This document shows, one piece after another, positions 34,186 to 40,105 of a DNA stretch of 64,000 bases. The notes below the pieces were generated by a model. The model ran no database searches. It saw nothing but the letters and a program-made list of their open reading frames with translations, and was not told the origin of the DNA. This DNA is from Pandoraea horticolens (GTDB lineage Bacteria; Pseudomonadota; Gammaproteobacteria; Burkholderiales; Burkholderiaceae), in assembly GCF_902459555.1 (NCBI RefSeq), contig NZ_CABPSM010000005.1:248001-312000 (forward strand), written 5' to 3'. The translations under genes and the position numbers were made by a program. How positions within the stretch are numbered: position 1 is the first letter of the stretch; every line of letters begins with the position of its first letter.

Positions 34186-34350
34186 GGGGCGAGGGTTTGC
34201 CGCCGAAGGCGCGCGGCCACGTGTTGCACCGCGCAAAGCGTCGCGGATAGGAATAAAGTGTCGGCTGACGGCGAAGTCGAAGTGCCTTAAGGGCACCCGC
34301 GTCATCCCGACGCCGCGCCGCGAATCCAACTTCCCCTCCGGAGATTGAAG

Positions 34351-35292
34351 GTGTCGCTGCCCCCACTGCTGGTCGTTATCCCGATGCATCCCGAGCAGTT
34401 GTCCGAACTGCAAGCGCAGTTCGACGTGATCTACCGTCCGAGCCATCACCCTGTGCCGGAAGGCTGGGGCCCCGAAGGCGAGCGAGCGCGCTTCGTCCTC
34501 ACGAATGGCGGGCGGGGTCTGAATGCTGCCGAACTGGCGCATCTGCCCAAGGTTGAACTGGTCAGTGCGCTGGGCGCCGGCTATGAGAATCTGGATCTCG
34601 CCACGATCCGTTCGCGCAACATTGTGGCCGTAAACGGGGCCGGCGCCAATGCGCCGACGGTCGCCGATCAGGGCTTCGCGCTGCTGCTCGCCGCTGTGCG
34701 TCGCATTCCGGAGTACGACGCGGCTTGCCGCAAAGGTGTGTGGCGCGACGCGCTGCCCATGCAGCCCGGCGTATCGGGTAAGAAGCTGGGCATCGTCGGG
34801 CTGGGCGCCGTCGGCCGTCAGTTCGCCAAGCGCGGCGAGGGCTTCGACATGCAGATCGGCTACCGGAACCGCCATCGTCGCGACGATTTGCCTGCGCACT
34901 ACCAATTCTTCGACAGCGTGCTGGCGCTGGCCGAGTGGGCCGACTATCTCGTCGTCACGGCGCCGGGCGGTGCAGAGTCGTATCACCTCGTGAATGCCGA
35001 TGTGCTGCGCGCACTCGGCAAGCACGGCTTTCTCGTCAACATGGGACGCGGCAGTATCGTCGACACCGCCGCCCTGGCCGACGCATTGCGCAATGGCACC
35101 ATCGCCGGTGCCGGGCTTGACGTGTACGAGGGCGAACCGTCACCGCCTGCGGCGCTGATCGACTTGCAGAACGTAGTGCTGAGCCCGCACGTGGCCGGGC
35201 GCTCGCCCGAGGCCGAAGCCGCCACGCTCGCCATGTTCCTCGAAAATACGCGCCGCTATCAGGCAGGAGAACCGCTGCTCACGCCGCTGTGA
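34351..35292 (+). CDS. D-2-hydroxyacid dehydrogenase
   Basis: 313 residues from GTG 34351 (7 bases after GGAG); TTG 34345 is an alternative. It has a Rossmann motif LGIVGLGAVGRQFAKRG, the catalytic Arg in NMGRGSIVDTAALADAL, Glu in GLDVYEGEPSPP and His in SPHVAGRSPEA. The glyoxylate/hydroxypyruvate reductase group is the best guess. It lies alone between the gentisate terminator and a small opposite-strand gene. Confidence 0.88.
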   Translation: MSLPPLLVVIPMHPEQLSELQAQFDVIYRPSHHPVPEGWGPEGERARFVLTNGGRGLNAAELAHLPKVELVSALGAGYENLDLATIRSRNIVAVNGAGANAPTVADQGFALLLAAVRRIPEYDAACRKGVWRDALPMQPGVSGKKLGIVGLGAVGRQFAKRGEGFDMQIGYRNRHRRDDLPAHYQFFDSVLALAEWADYLVVTAPGGAESYHLVNADVLRALGKHGFLVNMGRGSIVDTAALADALRNGTIAGAGLDVYEGEPSPPAALIDLQNVVLSPHVAGRSPEAEAATLAMFLENTRRYQAGEPLLTPL

Positions 35293-35305: not shown

Positions 35306-35557
35306 TCAGTGATTGTCCAGCCCATCGATGCTGCGCTCGGGCGACGACGTCAGCGTGACGCCGTCATTGACGGGCTCGAACTCGATGCTGCTCTTGGCGC
35401 TAGCCGTGGTGAAGGCTGTCTCGCATGTCGGACACCTCACTTCGGCATCCGAATGGAGATAGTCATAGAGCGCCTGAACGGTCGGCTGACTCGCCGCAAC
35501 GGAGAAACGGGCCTTACAGGTAGGGCAAACGACGAAACCAGTGTGGATCGACAGCAT
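35306..35557 (-). CDS. Small zinc-ribbon-like protein
   Basis: 83 residues from ATG 35557, preceded by GGGAGG; an upstream start would add 24 poorly conserved-looking residues. Two CPTC knuckles at residues 11-14 and 42-45 are spaced like a four-Cys zinc ribbon, with a Tyr/Asp-rich helix between (VQALYDYLHS) and an acidic tail. No enzyme motif. It converges with the hydroxyacid dehydrogenase. The function is unknown; zinc binding is inferred from the Cys pairs. Confidence 0.65.
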   Translation of the reverse strand: MLSIHTGFVVCPTCKARFSVAASQPTVQALYDYLHSDAEVRCPTCETAFTTASAKSSIEFEPVNDGVTLTSSPERSIDGLDNH

Positions 35558-35885
35558 GGTGGGCCTCCCGTCGGCAATGTGACCGATTCTACCGCCAGTC
35601 GGTTCGTCTCGGGCCAGCGCGCGTGGCATCGCCTCCGGGGCAACGATCCGACGCCTGTGCCGGCGATGGCCGGTCGTTCGCAGCCACCGCGTCGTTCCAT
35701 CAAGGAAACCTTACGAAAGCGGGCAGTGCATTGAGAAAATCAATGTGGCGGAACCGGCCGGCGGCCCGATCGATCGCACCGACATGGGCGGCAACCGGGG
35801 CGACAACGTGCAGCCCAGGCCACCTATACTGACAGCTCGGCTCACGTCTTTCGCGTCACCGGCGAATCCTGCACTGGGAGCACAT

Positions 35886-36326
35886 ATGGCTCGCGCGATC
35901 TGGAAGGGCGTCATCGGTTTCGGACTGGTCAACGTGCACGGCTACGAGTACGAGAAAGGAAATTACGTCGTGCTGAGTGACGACGAGATTCGTTCGGCAA
36001 ATCCGGTGGCTACGCAGACCGTCGACATTCTGGCACTCATCGATCGGAAGGTCGCCTCGGGACAGACCCGCGAAGTCGCGCAAATCGAAGCGAGCGCGCC
36101 CAGGTTATCGAGCAACGGCAACGTCACGGACCTGATGGCGCTGCTCAAGCAAAATCCCGGCACGAGGGGCAAACGGGAGGCCGTCGCCGCCCAAGCGCAC
36201 AAGGTGAAAACGAAGGCGTCCGGCAGCGCTCAATCGGAAAAGGCCGTGGCAAAATCCGCGAACCGCAAACCCGGACGGAAGACGGCAGCAAAGAAGACAT
36301 CGGCCAAACGCGCCAAATCCGGATAA
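35886..36326 (+). pseudogene. ku: Ku (NHEJ end-binding) gene with two internal in-frame deletions
   Basis: The frame encodes 146 residues instead of the usual 260-300. MARAIWKG-IGFGLVNV (1-17) is the normal Ku start, but residue 18 jumps to HGYEYEKGNYVVLSDDEI, which in Ku proteins lies some 40 residues later. After TVDILA (residue 50) it jumps again to LIDRKVASGQTREV, normally near the end of the core. Thus most of the beta-barrel ring that encircles DNA is gone, while the Lys/Ala-rich C-terminal tail is kept (KPGRKTAAKKTSAKRAKS). Both joints preserve frame: after 35936 and after 36035. ligD follows 8 bp downstream. DNA-end binding by this product is very unlikely. Confidence 0.85.
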
Positions 36327-36334
36327 CGACGATC

Positions 36335-38842
36335 ATGCCCAAGCGAGACGTGACTGCTACGAAAACCACGCGACGCCGGGAATCTCGCGACTCGCTGGCC
36401 ACCTACCACGCCAAACGCAACTTCACATCGACGCCTGAGCCGCGCGGCGAACCCGCGTCGCAAGGCAAGGCGTTGCGATACGTCGTTCAACGTCACGACG
36501 CGAGTCATCTCCACTACGACTTCCGGCTCGAACTCGACGGCACGTTGAAGTCGTGGGCATTGCCGAAGCAGCCGAGTCCCGACGTCAGCCGTCCTCGTCT
36601 TGCCGTTCAGGTCGAAGACCACCCGTTGGCCTATGCCGATTTCGAAGGCGACATTCCGGCCGGCAATTACGGCGCGGGGCACGTCGATATCTGGGACAGC
36701 GGTTCGTGGGAACCTGATGGCAACGCGCAACGCGACTATGCAAACGGCAAATTGTCGTTCACGTTGCATGGCGAACGACTGAACGGGCATTGGACACTCG
36801 TTCGCACCGATAAACCCGCTCGCCAGCCCCAGTGGCTGCTGATTCATCGGCACGGCGATAACGTAGTCGATAACGTGGCGTCGAACGCTGCCGGGAAGTC
36901 GACGGCTGCGCCGGTCACATTGCGACGATCGCCGGCGACACCGCCAGCCAGCATGCAACCGATGCTCGCGACCCTTGTCGATGCCGCGCCCGCTTCCGAG
37001 GGCTGGCATGCCGAGATCAAGCTCGATGGCTATCGCGTGCTCATTCGCGTTGCCGGCGACGACATTCGCGTCTTCACCCGTTCCGGGCAGGATTGGACGC
37101 ATCGCTTTGGACCTGCCGTCGACGCGTTGCGCAAGCGAGGCTTGCCAAACGCATGGCTCGACGGCGAGGCCGTCGTGACCAATGGGCAGGGTCTGCCCGA
37201 CTTTCAGGCGTTGCAGCGCGCGTTCGACGAGAACGCGCAGGACGCCATCCTCATCTACGTCTTCGACCTACCGTGGTGCAACGGCCGCGATTTGCGCGAC
37301 TTGCCGCTGCGAGAGCGTCAGGCGACACTCGCCAGCCTTTTCAAAGGGCGCGAGCCGGATGCCGTCCGGGTTCTCCAGCCGGTCAGCGGCGATCTCGAAT
37401 CGCTCTGGCACGGGGCCTGCGAAGCGGGTCTCGAAGGCATCATGATCAAGCGCGACGACTCGCCGTATATTGCCGGGCGCAGCGACGCGTGGCGCAAGCT
37501 CAAATGCTCGCAGCGTCAAGAATTCGTCGTGCTGGGGTTTACCGAGCCGTCCGGCTCGCGACAGGGTTTCGGGGCGCTGTTGCTCGGGTACTACGGTGAC
37601 GACGGCAAGACGTTGCGCTACGCGGGGAAGGTCGGTACGGGTTTCGATGCAGATGCACTACAGCGTCTGCGAAAGCAATTCGATGCGCTCGAGACCGCGA
37701 AGCCACCGCTCTCGCCCACACCTCGACCGGGAGGCCCGGCCCCCGTGCACTGGCTTCACCCCACACTCGTCGCGGAAGTGCGATTCGCGGAGTGGACACG
37801 CGACGGCAATGTCCGCCAAGCCTCGTTTCTCGCGATGCGCCAAGACAAACCCGCGAAGGACATTCGGCGTGAAGTCCGTCGTACCGGGCCCGCTATCGTC
37901 AATTCCTACAAGGAGACGCCACCCATGCCGCGCACCGCTCAATCGAACGATGGAACGTCCGTGTTGCCGGTGAAGATCAGCCACGGCGAGCGCGTCATGG
38001 ACACACATTCCGGCGTGACGAAAGCCGAACTGGCGGCGTATTACCACGCCGTGAGCCCGTGGATGCTCCCTCACCTCGCCGGACGACCGGTCGCGGTGTT
38101 GCGCGCGCCCGAAGGCATCGGTGGCGAGATGTTCTTTCAAAAGCACGCGGCGAAGACGATACAGGGCGTACGCGCGCTCGATGCGTCGCTCGATCCGGAT
38201 CATGAGCCGCTCATGCAGATCGACGACGCGCGCGGCCTCACCGGCGCCGTGCAGATGGGGGCGGTGGAGTTCCACACATGGAATGCACGCAGCGATCTGA
38301 TTGAACGCCCCGACCGGGTGATCTTCGATCTTGACCCCGGCAAGGGCGTAACGTTCGCGCGCATCGTCGAAGACGCGCAACTCATTCGCGACTTGCTGAA
38401 GGAACTTGGGCTGACAGCATTCGTGAAGACGAGCGGCGGCAAGGGACTGCATGTCGTAACCCCCTTGGCGCGGCGTCACGAGTGGGACGTCGCCAAGGGA
38501 TTTGCAGAAGCGGTGGCCAGGCATATGGCGCGCGTGTTTCCGGAGCGCTTCACGGCAACGATGGGGGCGAAGCATCGCATCGGGAAGTGTTTCGTCGACT
38601 ATCTGCGCAATTACCGGGGGGCGACGACGGTCTGCGCATACTCCGCCCGAGCCCGTGAAGGCATGGCCGTATCGATGCCGGTGCGCTGGGAGGAACTGTC
38701 CGATTTACCCGGCGCCGACGCGTGGAATGTGCGCAACGCCGTCGAACGGCTGAATACCTTGAAACAAGACCCTTGGGCCGACTACGAGAAGGCCTCGCAG
38801 CAGCAGGTGACGAAGGCGGTGCTGGATCGGTTCGGGGATTGA
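36335..38842 (+). CDS. ligD: ATP-dependent DNA ligase D (phosphoesterase-ligase-polymerase)
   Basis: 835 residues with all three LigD domains. The 3'-phosphoesterase has HDASHLHYD (His54, His58, His60, Asp62). The ligase domain carries the nucleotidyl Lys229 in EIKLDGYR and a later GIMIKR. The polymerase/primase domain begins near residue 546 (VKISHGERVMD) and has the metal-site FDLDPG (Asp665, Asp667) and TSGGKGLHV. The order PE-Lig-Pol is one known arrangement. LigD normally joins breaks together with Ku; here the neighbouring ku is wrecked, so it either works alone, with another Ku, or is becoming dispensable. Confidence 0.95.
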   Translation: MPKRDVTATKTTRRRESRDSLATYHAKRNFTSTPEPRGEPASQGKALRYVVQRHDASHLHYDFRLELDGTLKSWALPKQPSPDVSRPRLAVQVEDHPLAYADFEGDIPAGNYGAGHVDIWDSGSWEPDGNAQRDYANGKLSFTLHGERLNGHWTLVRTDKPARQPQWLLIHRHGDNVVDNVASNAAGKSTAAPVTLRRSPATPPASMQPMLATLVDAAPASEGWHAEIKLDGYRVLIRVAGDDIRVFTRSGQDWTHRFGPAVDALRKRGLPNAWLDGEAVVTNGQGLPDFQALQRAFDENAQDAILIYVFDLPWCNGRDLRDLPLRERQATLASLFKGREPDAVRVLQPVSGDLESLWHGACEAGLEGIMIKRDDSPYIAGRSDAWRKLKCSQRQEFVVLGFTEPSGSRQGFGALLLGYYGDDGKTLRYAGKVGTGFDADALQRLRKQFDALETAKPPLSPTPRPGGPAPVHWLHPTLVAEVRFAEWTRDGNVRQASFLAMRQDKPAKDIRREVRRTGPAIVNSYKETPPMPRTAQSNDGTSVLPVKISHGERVMDTHSGVTKAELAAYYHAVSPWMLPHLAGRPVAVLRAPEGIGGEMFFQKHAAKTIQGVRALDASLDPDHEPLMQIDDARGLTGAVQMGAVEFHTWNARSDLIERPDRVIFDLDPGKGVTFARIVEDAQLIRDLLKELGLTAFVKTSGGKGLHVVTPLARRHEWDVAKGFAEAVARHMARVFPERFTATMGAKHRIGKCFVDYLRNYRGATTVCAYSARAREGMAVSMPVRWEELSDLPGADAWNVRNAVERLNTLKQDPWADYEKASQQQVTKAVLDRFGD

Positions 38843-39133: not shown

Positions 39134-40105
39134 CTAGCTCCGTGTCACCCCTACATCCCCATCCTGCAACCAGCGGCGCTTGTCGCGCAGCGGGGCTTCG
39201 CCAAACACGCGCGCATATTCTCGGCTGAACTGCGACGCACTTTCGTACCCGACAGCCTGCGCCGCAGCCGCGACGGCGATGTCTGCCACGAAGATCAGCC
39301 GGCGTGCCTCCTGCAAACGCAATTGCTTTTGATACTGCACCGGGCTCATCGCCGTCACCAACTTGAAATGGTGATGCAGCGACGACACGCTCATGTGCAC
39401 CTCCTGCGCCAACGCCTCCACTCGCAACGGCTGCGCATAGTGCTCGCGTAACCAGCGCACCGCGCGCGCGATGCGATTCATCTGGCTATCCTGCAATGCC
39501 ATCTGGCGTAACAGCACGCCCTGCCCATTCATCAGCAAGCGGTACACGATCTCGCGCTTGATCATCGGCGCAAGAATCGGAATGTCGCGCGGCGTCTCCA
39601 GCAGGCGCAGCAAACGCAACACGGCGTCGAGCAGCGCAGCGTCCAGCCGGTTCACGTACAAGCCCCGGCCGCTCGCCGATGGGGCCGGCGGCGGCAGATG
39701 TTCGTCACCAATGAGCGACGTCACATCCTCAGCCGCCAGATTGAGCCGCAACCCGAGATACGGCGATTGCTCGCTCGCCCCCGACACCTGCGCCACCACC
39801 GGCAAATGCACCGACGACACCATGTAATGCATCGGATCGTAGGCGTAATGTGCTTCGCCGATCTGCAAGCGCTTTTCGCCTTGCGCGATGACGGCAAACG
39901 CCGGTTGCTGCATCGCTGGCTTCGGGCCGCCAGGATGCAGGATGCGATGCACGAAGAGGCCATCCACTGCCGTCGGCGTGGTGCCCTCCAGTGCGCGCGT
40001 GGCCCGCTCAAGCAGACCGACGAGTTCGTTGCGTGCGGTGAGCGACGGATCGTCGGCGAACTCGCTCTGCGCCGCCTCACGTGGCGAATTCTTGACCAGA
40101 TGCAT
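39134..40105 (-). CDS. AraC-family regulator (AraC_N + HTH_18)
   Basis: 323 residues. The N-terminal AraC_N cupin-like domain includes PAFAVIAQGEKRLQIGEAHYAYDPMHYMVSSVHLPV; the C-terminal double helix-turn-helix has LAQEVHMSVSSLHHHFKLVTAMSPVQYQKQLRLQEARRLI and AAQAVGYESASQFSREYARVFG. Such regulators (YqhC-like) often activate a divergent oxidoreductase, and an aldo/keto reductase is indeed divergent here with four copies of an 8-bp motif between them. Confidence 0.92.
   Translation of the reverse strand: MHLVKNSPREAAQSEFADDPSLTARNELVGLLERATRALEGTTPTAVDGLFVHRILHPGGPKPAMQQPAFAVIAQGEKRLQIGEAHYAYDPMHYMVSSVHLPVVAQVSGASEQSPYLGLRLNLAAEDVTSLIGDEHLPPPAPSASGRGLYVNRLDAALLDAVLRLLRLLETPRDIPILAPMIKREIVYRLLMNGQGVLLRQMALQDSQMNRIARAVRWLREHYAQPLRVEALAQEVHMSVSSLHHHFKLVTAMSPVQYQKQLRLQEARRLIFVADIAVAAAAQAVGYESASQFSREYARVFGEAPLRDKRRWLQDGDVGVTRS

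Follow-up and report, generated by a model that had tools for sequence, protein, structure and literature searches.

We analysed a 64,000-bp window of the Pandoraea horticolens genome (G000), in which a remnant of ku stands directly upstream of ligD (Table 1). On the + strand, the remnant keeps an uninterrupted frame of 146 codons and a stop, running from an ATG at 35886 to a stop at 36324-36326 and followed after 8 bp by the ligD ATG at 36335; the coordinates, open frame and gap given by an earlier, sequence-only reading of this DNA were all correct. That reading had also called the adjoining ligD intact, and LigD is indeed complete, with its phosphoesterase (PE), ligase and primase-polymerase domains all above their cut-offs in one frame. 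The locus lies between two genes conserved across the genus, the left one presumably D-2-hydroxyacid dehydrogenase-like and the right one, we assume, an AraC-type regulator. At 35306-35629, in the gap that separates ku from the left flank gene, lies a small ORF on the minus strand with CPTC pairs (zinc-ribbon-like).

Table 1. Features of the ku-ligD locus in P. horticolens (window positions).
Feature	Position	Strand	Evidence or remark
Conserved left flank gene	34345..35292	+	Orthologue with at least 85% identity in 27 of 32 genus genomes, G000 included
Doubly deleted ku remnant	35886..36326	+	Alignment to G010 ku; Pfam and TIGR02772 scores
Ku codons 1-17, replacements A9V and S11G	35886..35936	+	Both positions identical in 18 full-length Pandoraea Kus
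Joint 1, 5-bp repeat CGTGC	35933..35937	+	135 bp missing relative to G010
Kept Ku block HGYEYEKG...TVDIL	35937..36032	+	Codons 63-94 of G010 Ku
Joint 2, 4-bp repeat, GGCG in G010, GGCA here	36032..36035	+	384 bp missing relative to G010
Last core helix and minimal C-terminal segment, QSLG to QNPG	36033..36161	+	Alignment with Pandoraea Kus
Basic extended C-terminal tail, length variable across genus	36162..36323	+	Alignment with Pandoraea Kus
Complete ligD (phosphoesterase, ligase, primase-polymerase), 835 aa	36335..38842	+	Domain matches
Conserved right flank gene	39134..40105	-	Orthologue with at least 86% identity in 26 of 32 genus genomes, G000 included

We aligned the remnant with the full-length ku (292 codons) of the closest relative, Pandoraea communis (G010). 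The alignment bore out the claim of two in-frame core deletions: codon 17 is followed by a gap of 135 bp (45 codons), and remnant codon 49 by one of 384 bp (128 codons). G010 codons 1-17, 63-94 and 223 onward survive, and 173 codons of the Ku barrel and core are gone. The C-terminal tail differs in length as well, that of G010 being the shorter. In the 18 intact Pandoraea Kus (292-344 aa) length varied in the tails, and none had a core deletion. A large loss of the functional core, where orthologues in the same place are intact, is as expected of a ku pseudogene.

Because only 0.9% of all 50-599 bp deletions in the G010 ku have at least 5 bp in common at the joint, and 2.6% at least 4 bp, the repeats of 5 and 4 bp found here exceed chance at both joints, as the suggestion of a microhomology-type deletion had anticipated. 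The short repeats fit slippage or microhomology joining. The similar residues pointed out at the protein level hold at joint 1 (Asn-Val / Val-His) and fit joint 2 only roughly: the DNA shared there is a single base and the Ala codon rather than Asp-Ile-x-Ala. Both deletion lengths are multiples of three, which for a pair has a chance of 1/9.

The remnant falls below the curated cut-offs of both bacterial Ku models. Its Pfam Ku (PF02735) score was 18.6 bits against a cut-off of 25, over residues 17-55 only, and its TIGR02772 score 41.9 bits against a cut-off of 150. In G010 the Ku barrel model spans codons 11-180; 39 of those residues are left here. AlphaFold placed no strands in the 146-aa product (mean pLDDT 45.8, low confidence). 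The C-terminal segment that interacts with LigD in other bacteria (PMC13201618, available text) is present, its limits being set by homology with the B. subtilis and P. aeruginosa Kus described there, but its otherwise invariant end has changed from SL to NP. A domain search of the G000 assembly, a check that the sequence-only reading had proposed, returned no Ku match, and we rejected a compensating ku elsewhere in the genome on that ground. That reading had also advised looking for the short form in other strains; among the remaining 31 Pandoraea genomes, one genome per species, it occurred in none. Literature listings on Pandoraea with LigD, on LigD with pseudogenes and on truncated Ku with LigD contained no report of such a short ku.

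We considered whether an assembly or sequencing artefact conceals a full-length ku. The assembly is a draft of 68 contigs, and it contains no Ku domain match anywhere. The two short-joint deletions lie in non-repetitive coding DNA, and codons that are otherwise invariant carry substitutions; these features together indicate real decay, and an artefact seems to us barely conceivable.

To ask how the remnant has evolved, we applied a codon likelihood test to six genomes and 92 retained alignable codons, with the G000 branch as foreground. On this branch dN/dS was 2.8 versus a background of 0.047 (p=0.004), an imprecise estimate that rose to 19 on an alternative tree, and dN/dS = 1 was not rejected (p=0.71). 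When each of five relatives was made the foreground instead, dN/dS was 0.001-0.142 and never significantly raised (for G026 it was significantly lower); neutrality was rejected on four of these five branches, G010 falling just short (p=0.06). Since even the G010 branch fails to reject neutrality, so short a stretch offers little power. Four private replacements distinguish the remnant (A9V, S11G and Ser-Leu to Asn-Pro), in columns identical in 18/18 other Kus, versus 0-3 comparable replacements in the other genomes. The test rests on few such branch-specific changes: with codons 9 and 11, or both SL codons, dropped, the one-versus-two-rate comparison gave p ~0.07, and neutrality still fitted.

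We also fitted a mixture model in which evolution is neutral over the final fraction of the G000 branch, with branch length fixed. At the LigD-derived length of 0.22, the best fit was neutrality over the last ~20% of the branch (5-50%); at a shorter length of 0.15, it was the last ~40% (10-85%). Neutrality over the whole branch fitted worse (lnL -751.9 vs -746.3 at 0.22; -748.2 vs -745.7 at 0.15). Such a fit means either a recent loss of ku or weak residual constraint; we read it as recent loss. Neutral evolution over 20% of the branch predicts ~0.2 stops in the remnant and, if indels are taken to be a tenth of substitutions, ~0.5 frameshifts; over the whole branch it would predict 1.1 stops and 2.6 frameshifts. 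Given the 1/9 chance and a recent loss with few expected stops, an open frame is unsurprising, and of the explanations that the earlier reading had offered for it, chance suffices when joined to recency. Selection for a miniature product is disfavoured, because purifying selection is not detectable and invariant residues have been replaced. The remnant has evolved as a pseudogene would, free of protein-level constraint, on a count of few changes and with whole-branch neutrality fitting poorly.

LigD on the same branch is still constrained (dN/dS 0.17, neutrality rejected, p=1.7e-6). Decay of LigD in step with Ku was considered and is not significant (0.17 vs a background of 0.10, p=0.09). Part of the constraint recorded on this branch predates the loss of Ku.

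Across Pandoraea, a full Ku was found in 18/32 genomes and a LigD polymerase domain over the cut-off in 20/32. The 27 genomes with the left flank gene comprise the 18 with full ku and nine without (G000, G021, G024, G008, G011, G015, G019, G022 and G029); the five without a close left flank (G017, G023, G025, G028 and G030) gave no Ku match. Between the flanks of G008, G011, G015, G019, G022 and G029, neither tblastn nor blastn found a trace of ku or ligD. G024 retains a 3' scrap of ligD at the locus, and in G021 a ku scrap lies out of frame with its presumed start, next to a ligD cut to its polymerase part. A loss of Ku common to the near relatives of P. horticolens does not hold, with full ku in G010 and G026 and nearly the whole locus missing from G024. 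On a midpoint-rooted tree of both flanking genes, the locus was lost seven times if ku was never regained, or five times with one regain in G014. Pandoraea has thus lost the locus on some 5-7 occasions, and its genomes show the decay at several stages. That bacteria have repeatedly acquired and lost NHEJ is already published (PMC7719229, available text).

Some individual loci in the genus deserve a separate mention. In G021 (L115:1178-2300, minus), the kept Ku block runs from GYEYEKG to ATQT, with the end of the tail, and is nearly the same block as in P. horticolens; its polymerase-only ligD is an open frame of 305 aa. Since G021 had independently kept nearly the same stretch, we compared synonymous variability among the 18 Kus, and hidden regulatory DNA in the kept block was rejected (0.55 vs 0.52 in the deleted core). 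We take the resemblance as a probable coincidence. In G027 (full ku; L086, a one-contig genome), ligD is interrupted by a pair of 1-bp gaps that lie 12 bp from each other within C-rich runs and may be sequencing errors.

We extended the comparison to 399 genomes of the family, using domain matches and comparing the genome lists by eye; a Ku match in this survey does not equal a working Ku. Ku matched in 246 genomes and the LigD PE domain in 246, with both in 243. PE occurred without a Ku match in G000, G113 and G229, and a Ku match without PE in G139, G180 and G219. The G229 LigD changes frame near its start, whether truly or through sequencing error, and was for that reason not counted as a full open frame, which leaves G000 and G113 as the two of the 246 PE-domain genomes that combine an open, full-length LigD with the absence of any Ku match. 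In a 150-genome sample, 90 had Ku, 94 had a LigD polymerase domain over the cut-off and 89 had both. The Ku-less genomes there were G000, G113, G073, G153 and G161, and in the last three the LigD query matched the polymerase end alone. In G073 (L120), a congener of G113, LigD is cut to this end as a 374-aa open frame, a second such leftover like that in G021. The Ku of G139 (L123:4296-4810) consists of two pieces that overlap and lie in separate frames, and that genome gave no LigD polymerase or PE match.

Two loci from this survey bear directly on ours. In G113, from another genus of the family (L119:1939-4830, minus), a three-domain LigD frame starts with 11 Ku codons: compared with its sister G087, this genome has lost, without a change of frame, the 833 bp that separate ku codon 11 from the ligD ATG, and the same comparison found no repeat at the joint. 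In G230 (L176:1233-4602, minus), ku changes frame near codon 46 and lacks ~72 internal codons. Since G230 was counted as Ku-positive in spite of this broken frame, and the Ku matches in G180, G220 and G269 are similarly weak, decayed ku is commoner than the counts show.

We weighed three accounts of the locus beside the artefact dismissed above. According to one, Ku function is gone and the open frame from the ku ribosome site is kept as a leader for translation of ligD, through termination-reinitiation and freedom from Rho polarity, so that amino acids drift and the frame does not; this would imply a Ku-independent job for LigD. The ku start of P. horticolens pairs with the anti-SD at -6.5 kcal/mol, against -3.3 at the ligD ATG, the ku start being the stronger in 18/19 Pandoraea genomes (the exception is G027), and the closeness of the ku stop to the ligD ATG also suits this account. 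So do the constraint remaining on LigD and the in-frame fusion of a ku start to LigD in G113; all three large deletions in these two genomes keep frame, a chance of 1/27 that was noticed post hoc. A Ku-independent role of LigD in P. putida, with a proposed role in base excision repair (BER), is reported in the available text of PMC4770248 and gives LigD a possible reason to persist without Ku. However, the G113 LigD has kept its own ATG, an open frame is expected anyway after a recent loss, and in G230 LigD is open over its whole length behind the frame-broken ku, so that an unbroken ku-to-ligD frame is not strictly needed. The earlier suggestion that the frame preserves coupling to ligD hence draws support from the stronger ku site and the G113 fusion and is contradicted by G230, and we consider a selected leader unlikely. 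The broader proposition that LigD was kept as a Ku-independent repair enzyme, with the ku stub kept as such a leader or as a ring-less LigD-binding arm, we likewise regard as doubtful; if true, in-frame ku loss would be a repeated route to orphan-LigD repair, taken in P. horticolens and, independently, in G113.

A working mini-Ku would be the 146-aa product acting as a ring-less cofactor or tether of LigD through its recruiting segment and basic tail. The C-terminal arms are preserved in frame, and in the available text of two studies of other bacteria (PMC9638933, PMC13201618) the minimal C-terminus recruits LigD and the extended C-terminus of M. tuberculosis Ku stimulates nick sealing. The truncated Kus of those studies, however, retained the core, and the core itself aids LigD binding and ligation. 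In P. horticolens the kept residues evolve in a relaxed manner, the Ser-Leu that ends the LigD-binding segment in 18/18 Kus is replaced, and the predicted structure has no confident fold. We therefore judge this account very improbable.

A recently inactivated ku, a loss-of-function remnant and not a working mini-Ku, is in our judgement the probable explanation, and the locus most likely captures a repair pathway in the ordinary course of its loss. Two microhomology deletions took out roughly three quarters of the beta-barrel, along with the whole stretch between the barrel and the last core helix. Because barrel and core are mostly deleted, the DNA-encircling ring should not form, and we infer that the strain can no longer carry out Ku-dependent end joining. 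The ku frame would have been left open by chance and by the recency of the loss. LigD may be intact for want of time to decay, or because it works without Ku in nick or gap filling or in base-excision-type repair. Any order of the two deletions, like any present role of LigD, we infer from sequence. Three points speak against decay: the ku start signal is intact, most of the LigD-binding segment is too, and both deletions are in frame. On this reading, bacterial NHEJ has here been caught part-way through its loss, Ku first and LigD still constrained, and this natural Ku-less background makes a Ku-independent function of LigD testable.

No new kind of protein is shown here. Compared with bacterial Ku (PF02735 / TIGR02772), the remnant is colinear with the 18 Pandoraea Kus in its N-terminus, GYEYEKG block, last core helix and C-terminal arms, but unlike them it lacks most of the barrel and core, the part that binds DNA and LigD in other bacteria (PMC9638933, PMC13201618, available text), and scores below both models. 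The remnants in G021 and G024 share its locus and flanks and decayed independently; in contrast to P. horticolens, their ku is frame-broken or gone and their ligD truncated or a scrap. The G113 fusion resembles it in a three-domain LigD, the lack of a Ku match and an in-frame deletion, and differs in the extent of that deletion, the repeat-free joint and the ku codons fused to LigD. G230 is alike in its decayed ku with a large internal deletion beside an open LigD, whereas its ku cannot be read through. In the available text of a survey of NHEJ evolution (PMC7719229), one-step loss of both genes is the likeliest route, and POL and PE are missing from 90% of LigD-only genomes. P. horticolens, with a full LigD and no Ku match, belongs with the LigD-only state described there; what differs is that a three-domain LigD has outlived Ku and that the scars of the deletions remain legible.
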